NCBI GenBank assembly: GCA_028375605.1
Contig: JAONGR010000003.1
Span: forward strand, 1 to 64,000
DNA length: 64,000 nucleotides
Reading direction: 5' to 3'
From: Arcobacteraceae bacterium
Lineage (GTDB): Bacteria > Campylobacterota > Campylobacteria > Campylobacterales > Arcobacteraceae
This document shows positions 30,475 through 36,104 of this stretch, in pieces (the first letter of the stretch is position 1; every line of letters begins with the position of its first letter). Both the position numbers and the translations under genes were made by a program. Below the pieces are notes generated by a model. The model was not told where the DNA came from. It saw only the letters and a program-made list of their open reading frames with translations, and searched no databases.

Positions 30475-31650
30475 ATGACAAGTTTATATGATGACAATGT
30501 TGCAGCCTCGTTTACATCTGACTTAGAATTTAGAGTTTATACATCACGATTATTAGGTGGTGATTCATCTTTAGTTTTACATGGTGGGGGTAATACTTCT
30601 GTAAAAAGTGTTGTAGATGGAGAAGAGATTTTATACGTTAAAGGGAGTGGTTGGGATTTAGCTACTATTGAAGCAGAAGGGTTTGCTCCTGTTAAACTTG
30701 ATGTATTAAAAGAGATGGCTGCATTAGACAAACTAAGTGATACAGAGATGGTATCGCAACAAAAAGCTGCTATGATTGATAAGTCTGCACCAAATCCATC
30801 TGTAGAAGCTATTTTACATGCTATCATCCCTTTTAAATATGTGGACCATACTCACAGTGATTCGGTAGTAACAATTTCTAATAGTGAAAATGGTATAGAA
30901 AATATTAAAGAGGTGTATCCAAACTATTTGGTTATCCCTTATGTTATGCCTGGATTTATTTTAGCTCAAACTATTTATAGAGAATTAAAACATATAGATT
31001 GGGATAAATGTGAAGGTATAATTCTTCATAATCATGGTATATTTACTTTTGATAATGACCCTAAAATTTCATATGAAAAAATGATAAAAGGTGTTACTCA
31101 AGCTGAAGAATTTTTAGATAAAAAAGCAAACTTTATTATTGAAAAATATATGCCTAGAGCTGAATTGAATATTGAAAATTTAAAAGAGATTGTATCTCAA
31201 GAAAAAGGTTATGAAGTTTTTTTAAAAATAAATCAATCTCCACTTGCCTTACACTATGCTTCACAAAGAAATTTGAATGATTTTGCGAAAAGAGGGGTGT
31301 TAACTCCTGAGCATATTATACGAACTAAAAGGGATCCAATGATACTTGAAGATGAAAATATTCAAAAATCTATAGATACTTTCGAAGAGGAATATTTAGA
31401 ATATTATAATCAATTTACATCAAATGAAATTATGATTAATCCAACACCAAACTGGGTTGTTATAAAAAATTATGGTACTGTAAGTTTTGGTAAAAATGAA
31501 AAAGAAGCATCTATTATTGAAGATATCAATAATCACACAATGTTAGCTGTATTACGAGCTGATATGTTAGGTGGATATAAAAGTATCAGTTTATCTGATT
31601 GTTTTGATATGGAGTATTGGGAGTTAGAACAAGCTAAATTAAAGAAGTAG
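30475..31650 (+). CDS. Class II aldolase/adducin family protein (RhaD-fusion N-terminal-like)
   Basis: LHGGGNTSVK, DHTHSDSVV and ILHNHGIFTF. Confidence 0.82.
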   Translation: MTSLYDDNVAASFTSDLEFRVYTSRLLGGDSSLVLHGGGNTSVKSVVDGEEILYVKGSGWDLATIEAEGFAPVKLDVLKEMAALDKLSDTEMVSQQKAAMIDKSAPNPSVEAILHAIIPFKYVDHTHSDSVVTISNSENGIENIKEVYPNYLVIPYVMPGFILAQTIYRELKHIDWDKCEGIILHNHGIFTFDNDPKISYEKMIKGVTQAEEFLDKKANFIIEKYMPRAELNIENLKEIVSQEKGYEVFLKINQSPLALHYASQRNLNDFAKRGVLTPEHIIRTKRDPMILEDENIQKSIDTFEEEYLEYYNQFTSNEIMINPTPNWVVIKNYGTVSFGKNEKEASIIEDINNHTMLAVLRADMLGGYKSISLSDCFDMEYWELEQAKLKK

Positions 31651-31672
31651 AGATTTATTCTCATGACTTCTT
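31642..31672. terminator. Hairpin between convergent aldolase and glycosyltransferase genes
   Basis: AAGAAGT-a-GAG...CTC-atg-ACTTCTT, overlapping the aldolase stop codon. Confidence 0.5.
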
Positions 31673-31682
31673 CAATATCTTA

Positions 31683-32795
31683 TTACATAATATCTAGTTG
31701 ATGTGCTAAATCATTAGCAATTCTTTCATTATTTCTTATATCTAGTAACCTGTTTTGTCCATTTAGTCCTACTTGTGAAACTTCATCTTTAGTTAAGCCA
31801 ATAATTTTTTCAACTTTTTCTTTTATAGACTCTACATTAAATTTACATAACCAAGCAGAAGTATCATCTTCAAAAATTGATTCGTTGTTGTCATTTTTTG
31901 TCATTAGACATGGTACAGTTGATGTATAATAATCTAGCACTTTCATAGGTGTAGAACTATTAAATAAAACAATATCTGGTAAAGGTGCTAGTCCTACATC
32001 TGCTTTTGAGATTAAATCTAAAAGTTCAGCTTTAGAATTTGCATTGTATATTTCTATAGAACCTTGAAGGTCTGGATATTTATCCAACATTTTATTGGCA
32101 TATTCAGGATCTTTTGTAGAGATTATTAGTTTAAATTTTGTCGTATCAACTAAACTAAATGCTTCTAAAACAGTTTCAAACTCTCTTAACTTGTCTAATG
32201 TACCAGCATAGAAAAATCTTTTTTCATCTCCATCATGTTGTAAGTTTGGTTTTAAATCTTCAGGATCAATAGCTGAAGGGATTATAAAAGTTCTAGTTTT
32301 TACTGTTTTTAAGTAATCATCTCTCATTTGTCTTGATGTAGGTAAAAATATATCACATTGATTGATTAAGTTCGCTTCTGAAAATGTTTTTACTTTATTA
32401 CTAATCACATCAAAGAAACTTTTTTTATTGTTAGCTTCATCTTTTTGTAGTTTAGCAATTCTTTTTGGAAAAGATAATCTATACCCTAATATAAAATTAT
32501 AGTCTTTCTTTACACTTAAAACTTCTTTTAGTATTGCAGTGTGATTTCGTACAAATACATACTTATAATGCCCTATATATATTCTGTTTCTATCTAATTC
32601 ATCAATTATGTTATTTTTATGTTTAAGTGGCATAATAAATCTATTACCATCTTTGATTTCAAAATTTTCATTAGTTTTTGAAAAGTACATAATATCTACT
32701 TCATAGTGTTTGCCTAAATATTTTTCAAATAGTGGTCCAATAAAACTGTGTTCTTTATTTTCATTTTGGTCTGTTAAGTATAAAAATTTTTCCAT
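31683..32795 (-). CDS. Glycosyltransferase (group 1-like)
   Basis: FYAGTLDKLREFETVLEAF, ADVGLAPLPD and STPMKVLDYYTSTVPCLMT; start trimmed to MEKFLYLT. Confidence 0.8.
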   Translation of the reverse strand: MEKFLYLTDQNENKEHSFIGPLFEKYLGKHYEVDIMYFSKTNENFEIKDGNRFIMPLKHKNNIIDELDRNRIYIGHYKYVFVRNHTAILKEVLSVKKDYNFILGYRLSFPKRIAKLQKDEANNKKSFFDVISNKVKTFSEANLINQCDIFLPTSRQMRDDYLKTVKTRTFIIPSAIDPEDLKPNLQHDGDEKRFFYAGTLDKLREFETVLEAFSLVDTTKFKLIISTKDPEYANKMLDKYPDLQGSIEIYNANSKAELLDLISKADVGLAPLPDIVLFNSSTPMKVLDYYTSTVPCLMTKNDNNESIFEDDTSAWLCKFNVESIKEKVEKIIGLTKDEVSQVGLNGQNRLLDIRNNERIANDLAHQLDIM

Positions 32796-33009
32796 AATAA
32801 TTCCTTTTAATAAATTTAACATTGATAAATAGCATCTAAATAGCAAATTTTTACGTGTGAATATTTTACACATAATAAAAATATATAACAAAATATATGT
32901 ATAGAAAAGTAACACTATTTTATTTTAAAGTAAATGAATTTAATTGTATATAAATTTTGAAAACAGTTATTTTAGATATACTCTTAAACAAATAGAAAAG
33001 GATATTTAC

Positions 33010-34563
33010 TTGAAATATTTAATGGCATTAGATGCAGGTACAGGAAGTGTAAGAGCTGTTATATTTGATACTCAGGGTAATCAAATCAGTATAGGTCAAA
33101 GAGAGTGGATACATCTAGAAGAGGATGGTGTTCCATCTTCTATGAGTTTTGACTGTGATACAAACTGGACACTAACTCAAGATTGTATTACCGAAGCCTT
33201 AAGTAGTGGTAATATTGATTCTAAAGATATCTTAGCTGTGAGTAGTACGAGTATGAGAGAAGGTATTGTTTTATATGATAAAGATGGAAAAGAACTATTT
33301 GCCGTTGCAAATGTAGATGCACGAGCAGACAAAGAAGTAAAATATCTCAAAGAAAACTTTGATGGTATCGAAGAAGAGTTTTACTCACAATCTGGACAAA
33401 CTTTTGCGCTTGGTGCACTTCCTAGAATCATGTGGCTTAAAAATAACAAGCCTAATCTTTATGAAAAAGTAGCAAAAATATCTATGATAAGTGATTGGAT
33501 ACTTTATAAGTTAAGTGGTGTAATTGCAAGTGACCCAAGTAACGCTGGAACTGCAGGTGTATTTTCTCTTGAAAAAAGAGATTGGGTATCTTCTATGGCT
33601 TCTAAAGTTGGTATCAAAGATGATATTTTTCCTAAAGTTTATGAAGTAGGTGAGGTTATTGGGACAGTTACCAATACTACATGTGGTTTAGATAATAATA
33701 CCTTAGTAACTATGGGTGGTGGTGATGTTCAGTTAGGTAGTGCAGGGCTTGGTGTCGTTGAGTTAGGTGATGTTGCTATTTTAGGTGGATCATTTTGGCA
33801 ACAAGTTGTAAATATGCCATCAGATACAATTCCGCCAAAAGATATGGGCATAAGAGTAAATCCTCATGTTATTCCATTCCAGTCACAAGCAGAAGGGATT
33901 ACATTTTTTTCTGGTCTAGTGATGCGATGGTTTCGTGATGCTTTTTGTGATATAGAAAAAATAGAAGCAGAAAAACGGAACATAAATGTTTATCAAGTTT
34001 TAGAAGAAAAAGCTAAAAAAGTACCTGTTGGTTCAAATGGAATCATTCCTATATTTAGTGATAGTATGAAATATGGGAAATGGTATCATGCAGCGCCTAG
34101 TTTTTTAAATCTTAGTATCGACCCTACTGTTTGCAACAGAGCTAGTATGTTTAGAAGTCTACAAGAAAATGCCTGTATAGTAAGTGATATAAACCTCAAA
34201 AAAATAGAGGCTTTTTCTGGTATAAAAACAAAAACAATTGTATTTGCAGGAGGTTCAAGTAAAGGTGCATTATGGTGTCAAATTTTAGCCGATGTAACTG
34301 GATGTAAAATTAAGATACCAACTGTAACTGAAGCTACAGCATTAGGTACTGCTATGTCAGCTGGTGTTGGAGCAGGGATTTATAAAGATTTAAAATCTGC
34401 TGCAAAAGAGCTTGTAACTTGGGATAAAATATATACTCCAAATATGGATAATCATGAAGAATATAAACAGATAAAAGAAAATTGGCAAAAAGCCTATGAT
34501 ATACAACTACAACTAGTAGATGAAAATATAACTGATTCGATGTGGAAAGCACCGGGTCTATAA
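33010..34563 (+). CDS. lsrK: Autoinducer-2 kinase (FGGY family)
   Basis: Full-length resemblance to remembered E. coli LsrK: YLMALDAGTGSVRAVIFD, SMREGIVLYDKDG, VGGG-type GGGDVQLGSAGLGVVELGDVAILGGSFWQQVVN, MRWFRDAFC, C-terminal SMWKAPGL; TTG start proposed, upstream start at 32944 possible. Confidence 0.93.
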   Translation: MKYLMALDAGTGSVRAVIFDTQGNQISIGQREWIHLEEDGVPSSMSFDCDTNWTLTQDCITEALSSGNIDSKDILAVSSTSMREGIVLYDKDGKELFAVANVDARADKEVKYLKENFDGIEEEFYSQSGQTFALGALPRIMWLKNNKPNLYEKVAKISMISDWILYKLSGVIASDPSNAGTAGVFSLEKRDWVSSMASKVGIKDDIFPKVYEVGEVIGTVTNTTCGLDNNTLVTMGGGDVQLGSAGLGVVELGDVAILGGSFWQQVVNMPSDTIPPKDMGIRVNPHVIPFQSQAEGITFFSGLVMRWFRDAFCDIEKIEAEKRNINVYQVLEEKAKKVPVGSNGIIPIFSDSMKYGKWYHAAPSFLNLSIDPTVCNRASMFRSLQENACIVSDINLKKIEAFSGIKTKTIVFAGGSSKGALWCQILADVTGCKIKIPTVTEATALGTAMSAGVGAGIYKDLKSAAKELVTWDKIYTPNMDNHEEYKQIKENWQKAYDIQLQLVDENITDSMWKAPGL

Positions 34564-34611
34564 TTTAAAACAAATTCGATAAAATACAATATTAAATAAT
34601 AAGGGCAAAAA

Positions 34612-34899
34612 ATGACAATAACAAAAAGAGTAACATTTATAGCAAAAGAAGGTTGTGAAGAGAAAATGAAAGAGCTTTTAACAGCTATGGTTGAGCCTTC
34701 TAAAAAAGAACCAGGGATTATCTTTTATGATATTTTTCAGTGTAAAGATAATAAAAGAAAATTTTACGCTGTAGAATCTTGGGAAAATGAAAAAGCATTA
34801 GATGGACACAAAGCTACAGAACATTATGCAGTTTACAAATCAAGCTTTGAGCCATTTTGTGATGATAAATATACAGAAGATTTAGATATATTAGGATAA
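34612..34899 (+). CDS. Antibiotic biosynthesis monooxygenase (ABM) domain protein, LsrG-like
   Basis: EPGIIFYDIFQCKDNKRKFYAVESWENEKALDGHKATEHY; directly downstream of lsrK. Confidence 0.75.
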   Translation: MTITKRVTFIAKEGCEEKMKELLTAMVEPSKKEPGIIFYDIFQCKDNKRKFYAVESWENEKALDGHKATEHYAVYKSSFEPFCDDKYTEDLDILG

Positions 34900-34945: not shown

Positions 34946-35233
34946 ATGGCTGAAAAAAATAACGGTTTTTTAAAAAGAGCAGATGCTCATATTGCTTTAG
35001 CAAACGAACAAATGGTAGAGGGATTAACAGCAGGAGATATTAGTGCTTCTTTTATGTATGGAGCTGCAAGATTTAACGCTTGGATTGCTGCATCTTCTTT
35101 TGATACAAGAGAAGATATGATAGAGGAAAAAGAAAAAGCAATAGAATATTTTCTAGAAGAATATAAGAAAGCTTTAACTGAACACTTAGATCATCACGCT
35201 GAACACTACGATTTTACACAAAACCAGTCATAA
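34946..35233 (+). CDS. DUF3144-like protein
   Basis: ADAHIALANEQ...ASFMYGAARFNAWIAA. Confidence 0.75.
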   Translation: MAEKNNGFLKRADAHIALANEQMVEGLTAGDISASFMYGAARFNAWIAASSFDTREDMIEEKEKAIEYFLEEYKKALTEHLDHHAEHYDFTQNQS

Positions 35234-35237
35234 CTCG

Positions 35238-35266
35238 AAAAGAGAAAATTATAAGTTTTCTCTTTT
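35238..35266. terminator. Terminator hairpin after DUF3144-like gene
   Basis: aaaagagaaaattataagttttctctttt. Confidence 0.75.
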
Positions 35267-35291
35267 AATATATAAGATCAATTCGATCTGT

Positions 35292-36104
35292 TTATTTAGA
35301 AAATACTTTCTTTAAAAGTGAAGTAGTTTGTTCAACGGGGTCTTTTCTAATTGCAGATTCTTTTTGGGCAATCATTTTAAACAGTCCTCTTATTGCTTTT
35401 TCAGTTATAAACTCATCTAAATCTTTATCTGAACTTGTTGGGATATATGAATCTACACCAAATTGAGTAGCATACTTTGAGATAGAAGAGTCTTTTGTAT
35501 ATGATTCTAAATTTGATTTATAAAAACTATTAGCAGATGTATAGTACTTTGCAACTTGATTCTCATCCATAGATTTTTTGATAATAGGGCTAATAAGTTT
35601 CTTTAAATCTGTAGTTGTATTACTTTGGAAAAAATCTGTTGCTGCTGTACTATTACCTGCAAGTATCTTTTTAGCATCTTCTAAGTTCATATTGCTAACT
35701 GCATTTAAAAGTATACTTGTAGTTTCTGGTACAGCACTAGTAGCTGCATTATTTATAGATGTTACTAAATCATCCACAACTTTATCACCTCCGGCTTTTC
35801 TGATTACCGTTTCTATTTTTGCAAGATTATCAGGTAATGGTATTTTTACTGATGCATTATTTAAGTAACCATCTTTTGTACCTAGCTCTTTTACTGCAAA
35901 ATTTACACCAGTAGATAGTGCTTCTTTTAATCCGCTAGAGATTATGTCATTACTAAGTGAGCTTGTCTCTGTTTGAGTAGTTTTATCAGTATTTACAGAC
36001 TCTTTTACTGTATCTACAACACTTTTAGTTAGACTTCCAAAATCAAATGAAAAACTTACTGTTGTAATAAGTAATATAGATGATAGAATAGATTTTTTTT
36101 TCAT
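35292..36104 (-). CDS. DUF4197-like exported protein
   Basis: Signal peptide; GLKEALSTGVNFAVKELGTKDGYLNNASVKIPLPDNLAKIE. Confidence 0.8.
   Translation of the reverse strand: MKKKSILSSILLITTVSFSFDFGSLTKSVVDTVKESVNTDKTTQTETSSLSNDIISSGLKEALSTGVNFAVKELGTKDGYLNNASVKIPLPDNLAKIETVIRKAGGDKVVDDLVTSINNAATSAVPETTSILLNAVSNMNLEDAKKILAGNSTAATDFFQSNTTTDLKKLISPIIKKSMDENQVAKYYTSANSFYKSNLESYTKDSSISKYATQFGVDSYIPTSSDKDLDEFITEKAIRGLFKMIAQKESAIRKDPVEQTTSLLKKVFSK

Follow-up and report, generated by a model that had tools for sequence, protein, structure and literature searches.

There is a long-standing debate over whether AI-2 serves as a signal or is a by-product of metabolism. The lsr system of E. coli and Salmonella (lsrACDB-F-G, lsrR-lsrK) follows a logic of phosphorylation, isomerisation and cleavage to DHAP. 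A survey of genomes detected the LsrB receptor in none of the luxS-positive epsilonproteobacteria, and alphaproteobacteria with an lsr operon of the aldolase type were reported to be without luxS (PMC2561040); since luxS is reportedly lacking there, the alphaproteobacterial pathway must use AI-2 from outside. The known 5-deoxyribose route is composed of a kinase, an isomerase and a class II aldolase, its kinase being of the MtnK type and not of the FGGY family, and its isomerase of the MtnA type (PMC6079011). Our literature search found no paper linking LsrK with Sulfurimonas, and LsrK appeared together with a class II aldolase only in the LsrF structure paper; the primary LsrG and LsrF enzymology lay outside the search, and an earlier mention of the aldolase is possible.

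Here, we describe an LsrK locus from an Arcobacteraceae bacterium, located in a window of 64,000 nucleotides, the whole stretch of DNA analyzed, which belongs to a MAG that is 62% complete. We propose that three of its genes probably encode a cytosolic module for AI-2/DPD processing, in which a class II aldolase replaces LsrF and which would serve the salvage or detoxification of DPD released by LuxS.

Results

The initial annotation had described a kinase, an ABM protein and, across an opposite-strand glycosyltransferase, an aldolase. All four ORFs were confirmed at their places between positions 30475 and 34899:

30475 to 31650, plus strand: stand-alone class II (metal-dependent) aldolase, PRK08324 type without the SDR half, proposed replacement of LsrF (Aldolase_II, E = 4e-22; NF006197, 458 bits)
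31683 to 32915, minus strand: glycosyltransferase (group 1), outside the module (Glycos_transf_1, E = 3.5e-10)
33010 to 34563, plus strand: LsrK, autoinducer-2 kinase (FGGY family), TTG start (NF008187, 849.7 bits; 5YA0, E = 1.5e-184)
34612 to 34899, plus strand: small ABM-fold protein, conserved partner of the aldolase and candidate P-DPD isomerase for the role of LsrG (PF03992, E = 1.2e-14)

Judged by its sequence, the ORF at 33010 to 34563 is a full-length AI-2 kinase and an LsrK equivalog. The NCBIfam model NF008187 ("autoinducer-2 kinase"; cut-off, 528 bits) covered residues 1 to 517 of 517, and the closest solved structure was that of E. coli LsrK (5YA0), matched over the full length, with 54% identity between the two kinases. 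Comparison of the catalytic and ATP sites with those of E. coli LsrK showed M83-R84-E85 and D240 to be invariant, while Arg319, Arg322, Trp435 and Tyr341 of the E. coli enzyme are retained. The end-to-end match to LsrK claimed initially holds at equivalog level, and the quoted motifs are present. The HPr contact residue Glu122 is replaced by Tyr in all four Campylobacterota sequences compared, and no HPr was found in the 12 genomes searched.

The best NCBIfam models for the aldolase were those of the PRK08324 "bifunctional aldolase/SDR" set, none of which scored above cut-off because the protein is without the SDR half; the NF006197 match accordingly covers the N-terminal 410 positions of that model. 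The signature of the class II aldolase fold (His-x-His ... His plus a catalytic Glu) is present, with the metal ligands H125, H127 and H187 invariant in the alignment and the catalytic E111 kept in all aligned rows except one from a rhamnose operon. For the predicted model (pLDDT 91), the nearest solved folds were a class II aldolase domain (3M4R) and fuculose-1-P aldolases. Of the initial description of this protein as RhaD-like, the fold was borne out, but a place on the RhaD branch was not, since TIGR02632, a bifunctional model, gave 213.8 bits against a cut-off of 567.8 and the tree set the rhamnose-operon proteins apart with support of 100/99.

The ABM protein had been called LsrG-like, and this is correct for its fold and its position, as the predicted model (pLDDT 94) had a TM score of 0.90 to E. 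coli LsrG (3QMQ) and the gene is linked to LsrK. Other ABM proteins were equally close, however, and the fold comparison is thus no proof of LsrG. Membership of the LsrG family was rejected because the LsrG model scored only 36.2 bits, far under its cut-off of 135; identity to E. coli LsrG was 29% over 69 residues.

In the nearest relative (locus L100), the aldolase and LsrK genes lie no more than about 10 bp apart with no gene between them, and all three genes are contiguous. The opposite-strand glycosyltransferase is therefore an insertion that splits the aldolase from LsrK in this genome and is not a member of the module.

We then surveyed 299 Campylobacterales genomes: LsrK was present in 70, the aldolase in 69, both in 65 and neither in 225 (Fisher p ~2e-54, with genomes treated as independent and phylogeny uncorrected). 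At least 11 genera contain some species with both genes and others with neither, and the set recurs in about 30 genera of the order, indicating that it is not a broken remnant. A same-strand aldolase gene was located within 150 bp of LsrK, or fused to it, at 24 of 65 LsrK loci, and one aldolase-LsrK fusion protein of 916 aa was found; at 22 of 65 loci both the aldolase and the ABM genes were within 3 kb. The initial annotation had proposed following the kinase-ABM pair across Campylobacterota, and an ABM gene was indeed found within 7 kb of LsrK at 27 of 65 loci. At 31 of 65 loci, some of them cut by contig ends, no aldolase gene occurred within 7 kb, and nearly all of those genomes encode it elsewhere. 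The ABM gene is the immediate neighbor of 31 of 54 stand-alone aldolase genes, also where these are not next to LsrK, and the order ABM-aldolase-LsrK is seen in many other Campylobacterota. Across Campylobacterota, the aldolase, LsrK and the ABM protein form a set that is conserved although its arrangement changes; the aldolase is a core member of it and not the mere neighbor it had been taken for.

Among the frequent neighbors were the radical-SAM gene mqnC and metK, the latter directly downstream of LsrK in 5 genomes, while luxS lay 1.6 to 3 kb from LsrK in 3 genomes and a cupin gene, possibly encoding an isomerase, followed LsrK at 13 loci. No transporter gene was conserved beside the trio at the loci compared across the order. 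Aldolase genes away from LsrK had unrelated neighbors (Na/H exchanger, P-type ATPase, amidase, MFS, GatB), and no aldehyde dehydrogenase that would name the aldolase product was found beside them.

As initially noted, no lsr transporter, regulator or LsrF was in view: none of lsrACDB, lsrR and lsrF is near LsrK at its own locus. The genome search that had been suggested as a check revealed luxS, while in this 62% complete MAG there was no match for Peripla_BP_4 (the lsrB type), for the DeoC/LsrF type or for the LsrR type (PF04198, searched in this genome alone), and no MtnA. LsrB was detected in none of the 299 genomes of the order, the best similarity to E. coli LsrB being 31 bits. Peripla_BP_4 proteins, weak hits included, occurred in 28 of 70 LsrK genomes versus 31 of 229 others; a concealed LsrB among them was rejected, there being no real match to LsrB. 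DeoC-family matches were present in 56 of 299 genomes, and those from 13 LsrK-positive genomes were rejected as LsrF, with an identity that over long stretches did not exceed 29%, compared to 51% between two known LsrF proteins. The presence of luxS in LsrK genomes is weak evidence for the module: 68 of 70 carry it (p 0.03), and it is found in 90% of the order anyway.

In Campylobacterota, MtnK and MtnA are accompanied by a paralog of the aldolase, the bifunctional aldolase/SDR protein, and at one locus (L103) metK, mtnK, mtnA, aldolase/SDR, aldolase and lsrK form a single run. Neither an MtnK-like kinase nor an MtnA-like isomerase was found beside the trio, and MtnA was absent from 34 of 46 LsrK genomes, the other 12 having both systems.

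The same aldolase class is encoded in alphaproteobacterial lsr operons of Ensifer, Thalassospira, Alloyangia, Paracoccus, Sinorhizobium and Roseicitreum, where its gene mostly adjoins lsrB in the lsrF slot and an LsrG-like ABM gene is near lsrK. A single origin of the lsr-linked aldolases was ruled out (p-AU 5e-47), showing that aldolase and LsrK were joined at least two times.

Discussion

We infer the substrate and products of the module, and its role in salvage or signaling, as follows. LsrK, given its strong orthology, would use ATP to phosphorylate DPD at the C5 hydroxyl. The ABM-fold protein may isomerise P-DPD as E. coli LsrG does, as suggested by its fold, its position and its pairing with the aldolase, and the aldolase would then separate the DHAP half from the two-carbon half, so that DHAP and a C2 product such as acetate or acetaldehyde are formed. 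Co-occurrence, fusion and the paralog in an MTR/5-deoxyribose salvage operon point to the aldolase taking the role of the CoA-dependent thiolase LsrF; from the paralog, a cleavage of the same type would be expected, in a carbon skeleton that is almost identical. Textbook class II aldolases cut a beta-hydroxy ketone; since isomerised P-DPD is a beta-diketone, the model must assume hydrolytic cleavage or prior reduction. Because luxS is present but no LsrB was detected, the module would most likely salvage or detoxify DPD formed by LuxS during SAM recycling rather than serve uptake-based quorum sensing, and the Peripla_BP_4 proteins of some LsrK genomes make uptake by another carrier possible.

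The minimal AI-2 phosphorylation/processing module initially suggested is well supported, its aldolase co-occurring with, adjoining and once being fused to LsrK. The same enzymes and chemistry could instead act on AI-2 from outside, entering by another sugar carrier, so that cells scavenge or quench their neighbors' AI-2 as a carbon source or in competition. The Peripla_BP_4 counts, weak hits included, favor this, as do the alphaproteobacteria, in which LsrACDB accompanies the aldolase and luxS is reported absent (PMC2561040). We nevertheless consider it unlikely, since 42 of 70 LsrK genomes are without Peripla_BP_4, none has a recognisable LsrB, no conserved transporter flanks the trio and luxS or metK adjoins it in some genomes. 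That the aldolase and ABM protein belong to unrelated metabolism and are chance neighbors of a stand-alone AI-2 kinase is very improbable: the opposite-strand gene in this genome and the 31 of 65 loci without a nearby aldolase fit such a reading, but the co-occurrence counts (65/70/69), the adjacency found repeatedly and in varying gene order, the fusion and the independent recurrence in alphaproteobacteria speak against it, and chance proximity of the aldolase is ruled out by co-occurrence, fusion and recurrence.

The initial annotation had also offered a kinase repurposed for another linear sugar. In a DHAP-shunt type of route, LsrK would phosphorylate a 5-deoxypentose-derived or other ketose (e.g., 5-deoxyribulose) at C1, and the aldolase would yield DHAP and acetaldehyde. 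The paralog in the MtnK-MtnA-aldolase/SDR operon, the three-enzyme composition of the 5-deoxyribose route and the mqnC, metK and cupin neighbors are in line with this; however, that route has no FGGY kinase (PMC6079011), most LsrK genomes examined are without MtnA, and the 12 of 46 carrying both systems argue for different substrates. LsrK-specific conservation at equivalog level, the luxS/metK neighborhoods and the same aldolase class in genuine lsr operons further disfavor this reading, which we regard as rather doubtful.

Returning to the AI-2 processing module, we tentatively suggest, with slightly less than even confidence, that metal-dependent class II aldolases were recruited at least twice, in Campylobacterota and Alphaproteobacteria, in place of LsrF, allowing CoA-free conversion of phospho-AI-2 to DHAP and a C2 product; in Campylobacterota this would serve the LuxS methyl cycle as its disposal arm, inside AI-2 producers that have no importer and beside other SAM by-product salvage genes. 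A conserved three-gene set without an importer suggests that AI-2 is recycled as a carbon by-product and not imported as a signal, and in luxS-positive Campylobacterota it represents a concrete, testable salvage pathway. The aldolase also suggests how lsr operons without LsrF could still degrade phospho-AI-2.

Compared to the E. coli/Salmonella lsr system, the locus shares a full-length LsrK ortholog, an ABM-fold protein in the place of LsrG and a compatible reaction logic. It differs in having no importer genes near LsrK, no LsrB found in the order, no LsrR found in its own incomplete genome, a class II aldolase for LsrF, an ABM protein outside the LsrG family and, in the genomes and sequences compared, neither HPr nor its Glu122 contact. 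The alphaproteobacterial operons resemble it in the broad aldolase family, in the ABM gene adjoining lsrK and in the absence of lsrF from the operons read, whereas they keep lsrACDB and lsrR, their ABM proteins are LsrG-like (41 to 54% identity to E. coli LsrG) and their aldolases form a separate branch of the tree. With the DHAP shunt (DrdK-DrdI-DrdA; MtnK-MtnA-aldolase), the trio has in common the scheme of kinase, isomerase and class II aldolase with DHAP as the proposed product, and an aldolase paralog within the Campylobacterota MtnK-MtnA operon; unlike the shunt, it has an FGGY/LsrK kinase, is without an MtnA-like isomerase and is proposed to act on another substrate.

The aldolase, LsrK, and the ABM-fold protein

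The genes of interest all lay where the initial annotation had placed them and are, with the genes immediately downstream of the set, as follows:

30475-31650 (+), class II aldolase
31683-32915 (-), glycosyltransferase
33010-34563 (+), LsrK (AI-2 kinase)
34612-34899 (+), ABM-fold protein
34946-36104, DUF3144 and DUF4197 genes

Matched against the curated AI-2 kinase model, the ORF at 33010-34563 scored 849.7 bits over its full length (cut-off, 528), and its earlier assignment as LsrK thus holds under a strict model. Its closest solved structure is E. coli LsrK, to which it is 54% identical, and the active site is conserved; the window kinase is a further member of the known AI-2 kinase family. 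E. coli LsrK is bound and inhibited by the PTS protein HPr (PMC8016206). Glu122, which contacts HPr, is replaced by tyrosine in the Campylobacterota rows compared, and no PTS HPr was found in the 12 genomes searched, namely, the window's own and relatives.

The protein encoded 3' of LsrK had been labeled LsrG-like; it does have the ABM fold but reached 36 bits against an LsrG cut-off of 135. The aldolase upstream is of the PRK08324 type but lacks the short-chain dehydrogenase (SDR) half, and it falls in our tree outside the rhamnose-operon RhaD branch, contrary to its designation as RhaD-like. Its metal-site residues (H125, H127, H187, and E111) are present, and its confidently predicted structure is closest to a class II aldolase domain and to fuculose-1-phosphate aldolases, the matches also including the Bacillus thuringiensis 5-deoxyribose aldolase.

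In the closest relative found, an Arcobacteraceae MAG (L100) whose LsrK is 80% identical to that of the window, the order is likewise aldolase, LsrK, ABM, with only ~10 bp between aldolase and LsrK. Since the window DNA aligns to L100 on either side of the opposite-strand glycosyltransferase (31683-32915) and L100 has no counterpart in between, this gene is an insertion that split the aldolase from LsrK.

Co-occurrence and gene order in Campylobacterales

Among 299 Campylobacterales genomes, LsrK (E < 1e-70) was present in 70, the aldolase (E < 1e-40) in 69, both in 65, and neither in 225 (Fisher P = 2e-54, a descriptive value that ignores phylogeny). The genomes with LsrK only (G001, G019, G131, G142, and G225) are 79 to 95% complete. 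Within 11 genera (g16, g18, g21, g28, g41, g51, g59, g63, g67, g70, and g77), some species carry both genes and others neither, indicating that the two are gained or lost together.

The aldolase immediately adjoins LsrK on the same strand, or is fused to it, at 24 of 65 LsrK loci, and aldolase and ABM genes both lie within 3 kb at 22 of 65. Orders include ABM-aldolase-LsrK, aldolase-LsrK-ABM, ABM-metK-aldolase-LsrK, and ABM-aldolase-LsrK-metK; genome G265 (L092:7807-10554) encodes a single 916-residue aldolase-LsrK fusion, followed by a cupin. ABM and aldolase stay paired even where both are distant from LsrK. The aldolase, LsrK, and the ABM protein are thus one gene set.

A conserved cupin gene (~124 amino acids) directly follows LsrK at 13 loci (L037:10564-10938 and 12 others) in several families of the Campylobacterales and is a candidate extra isomerase of the pathway. 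metK comes directly after LsrK in five sampled genomes and in many named Sulfurimonas records, and the radical-SAM gene mqnC is nearby in 15 sampled cases. luxS, present in the window's own genome, is separated from LsrK by 1.6 to 3 kb in three genomes (L094, L095, and L096), all of genus g67, where it adjoins the aldolase and an LsrK that has diverged further (55% identical to the window's). Overall, luxS occurs in 68/70 LsrK genomes versus 203/229 others (P = 0.03), a weak association, since luxS is nearly universal in these genomes.

Proposed function

No LsrB was found in the 299 genomes (best score, 31 bits); a published survey reported that epsilonproteobacteria lack LsrB (PMC2561040). 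LsrF was not found among DeoC-family proteins from 13 LsrK-positive genomes, nor did LsrR-type regulators match in the window's own genome (62% complete), the sole genome searched.

In E. coli, LsrK produces phospho-DPD, LsrG isomerizes it, and LsrF moves the acetyl moiety onto CoA, freeing DHAP (PMC8016206). DrdA acts on 5-deoxyribulose 1-phosphate (PMC6079011), from which isomerized phospho-AI-2 differs by a ketone replacing one hydroxyl. In the set, the ABM protein would isomerize phospho-DPD, and the aldolase would hold the DHAP enediolate on its metal and cut, hydrolytically or after a reduction, the bond that LsrF cuts.

Because luxS is present and no LsrB was found, the substrate would most simply be the cell's own DPD. 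AI-2 from outside could instead enter via another carrier, a Peripla_BP_4 protein being present in 28/70 LsrK genomes. Another possibility is a deoxy-sugar pathway. Sulfurimonas-type genomes have an operon of mtnK, mtnA, and a bifunctional aldolase/SDR paralog (L187:136-4396, L188, L189, L190, and L103:1190-9563) that looks like a methylthioribose/5-deoxyribose DHAP shunt, mtnK and mtnA being 5-methylthioribose/5-deoxyribose salvage genes. In the Sulfurimonas MAG L103, one run comprises metK, mtnK, mtnA, the bifunctional aldolase, the stand-alone aldolase, lsrK, and mqnC. However, MtnA is missing from 34 of 46 LsrK genomes and the other 12 carry both systems, which makes a deoxy-sugar role for the set less likely. 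In nine LsrK genomes the bifunctional form is the sole one present and may serve both routes. Most likely, the set acts on endogenous DPD, salvaging or detoxifying it as an arm of SAM recycling.

Comparison with known lsr systems

In alphaproteobacterial lsr operons (Sinorhizobium records included), the gene after lsrACDB, in the position of E. coli lsrF, encodes a class II aldolase (L182, L183, L185, L186, L217, and L221), and lsrR-lsrK is followed by an LsrG-like ABM gene; the Lacticaseibacillus lsr locus, in contrast, has lsrF. ABM and aldolase genes are adjacent in the Roseicitreum lsr locus, next to an RbsD/FucU-family gene. Sampling beyond Campylobacterota consisted of plasmid records only. 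In the tree, the alphaproteobacterial lsr aldolases group with alphaproteobacterial bifunctional proteins, separately from those of Campylobacterota. A single grouping of lsr-linked aldolases, a clade named after the first tree was seen, was rejected (constrained tree, p-AU = 5e-47); such aldolases thus joined LsrK at least twice, independently.

The literature searched does not describe the module, and the alphaproteobacterial aldolase may already have been noted in the primary S. meliloti lsr papers, which lie outside that literature. The module is a variant on a known lsr-type system, built around an already known kinase family.
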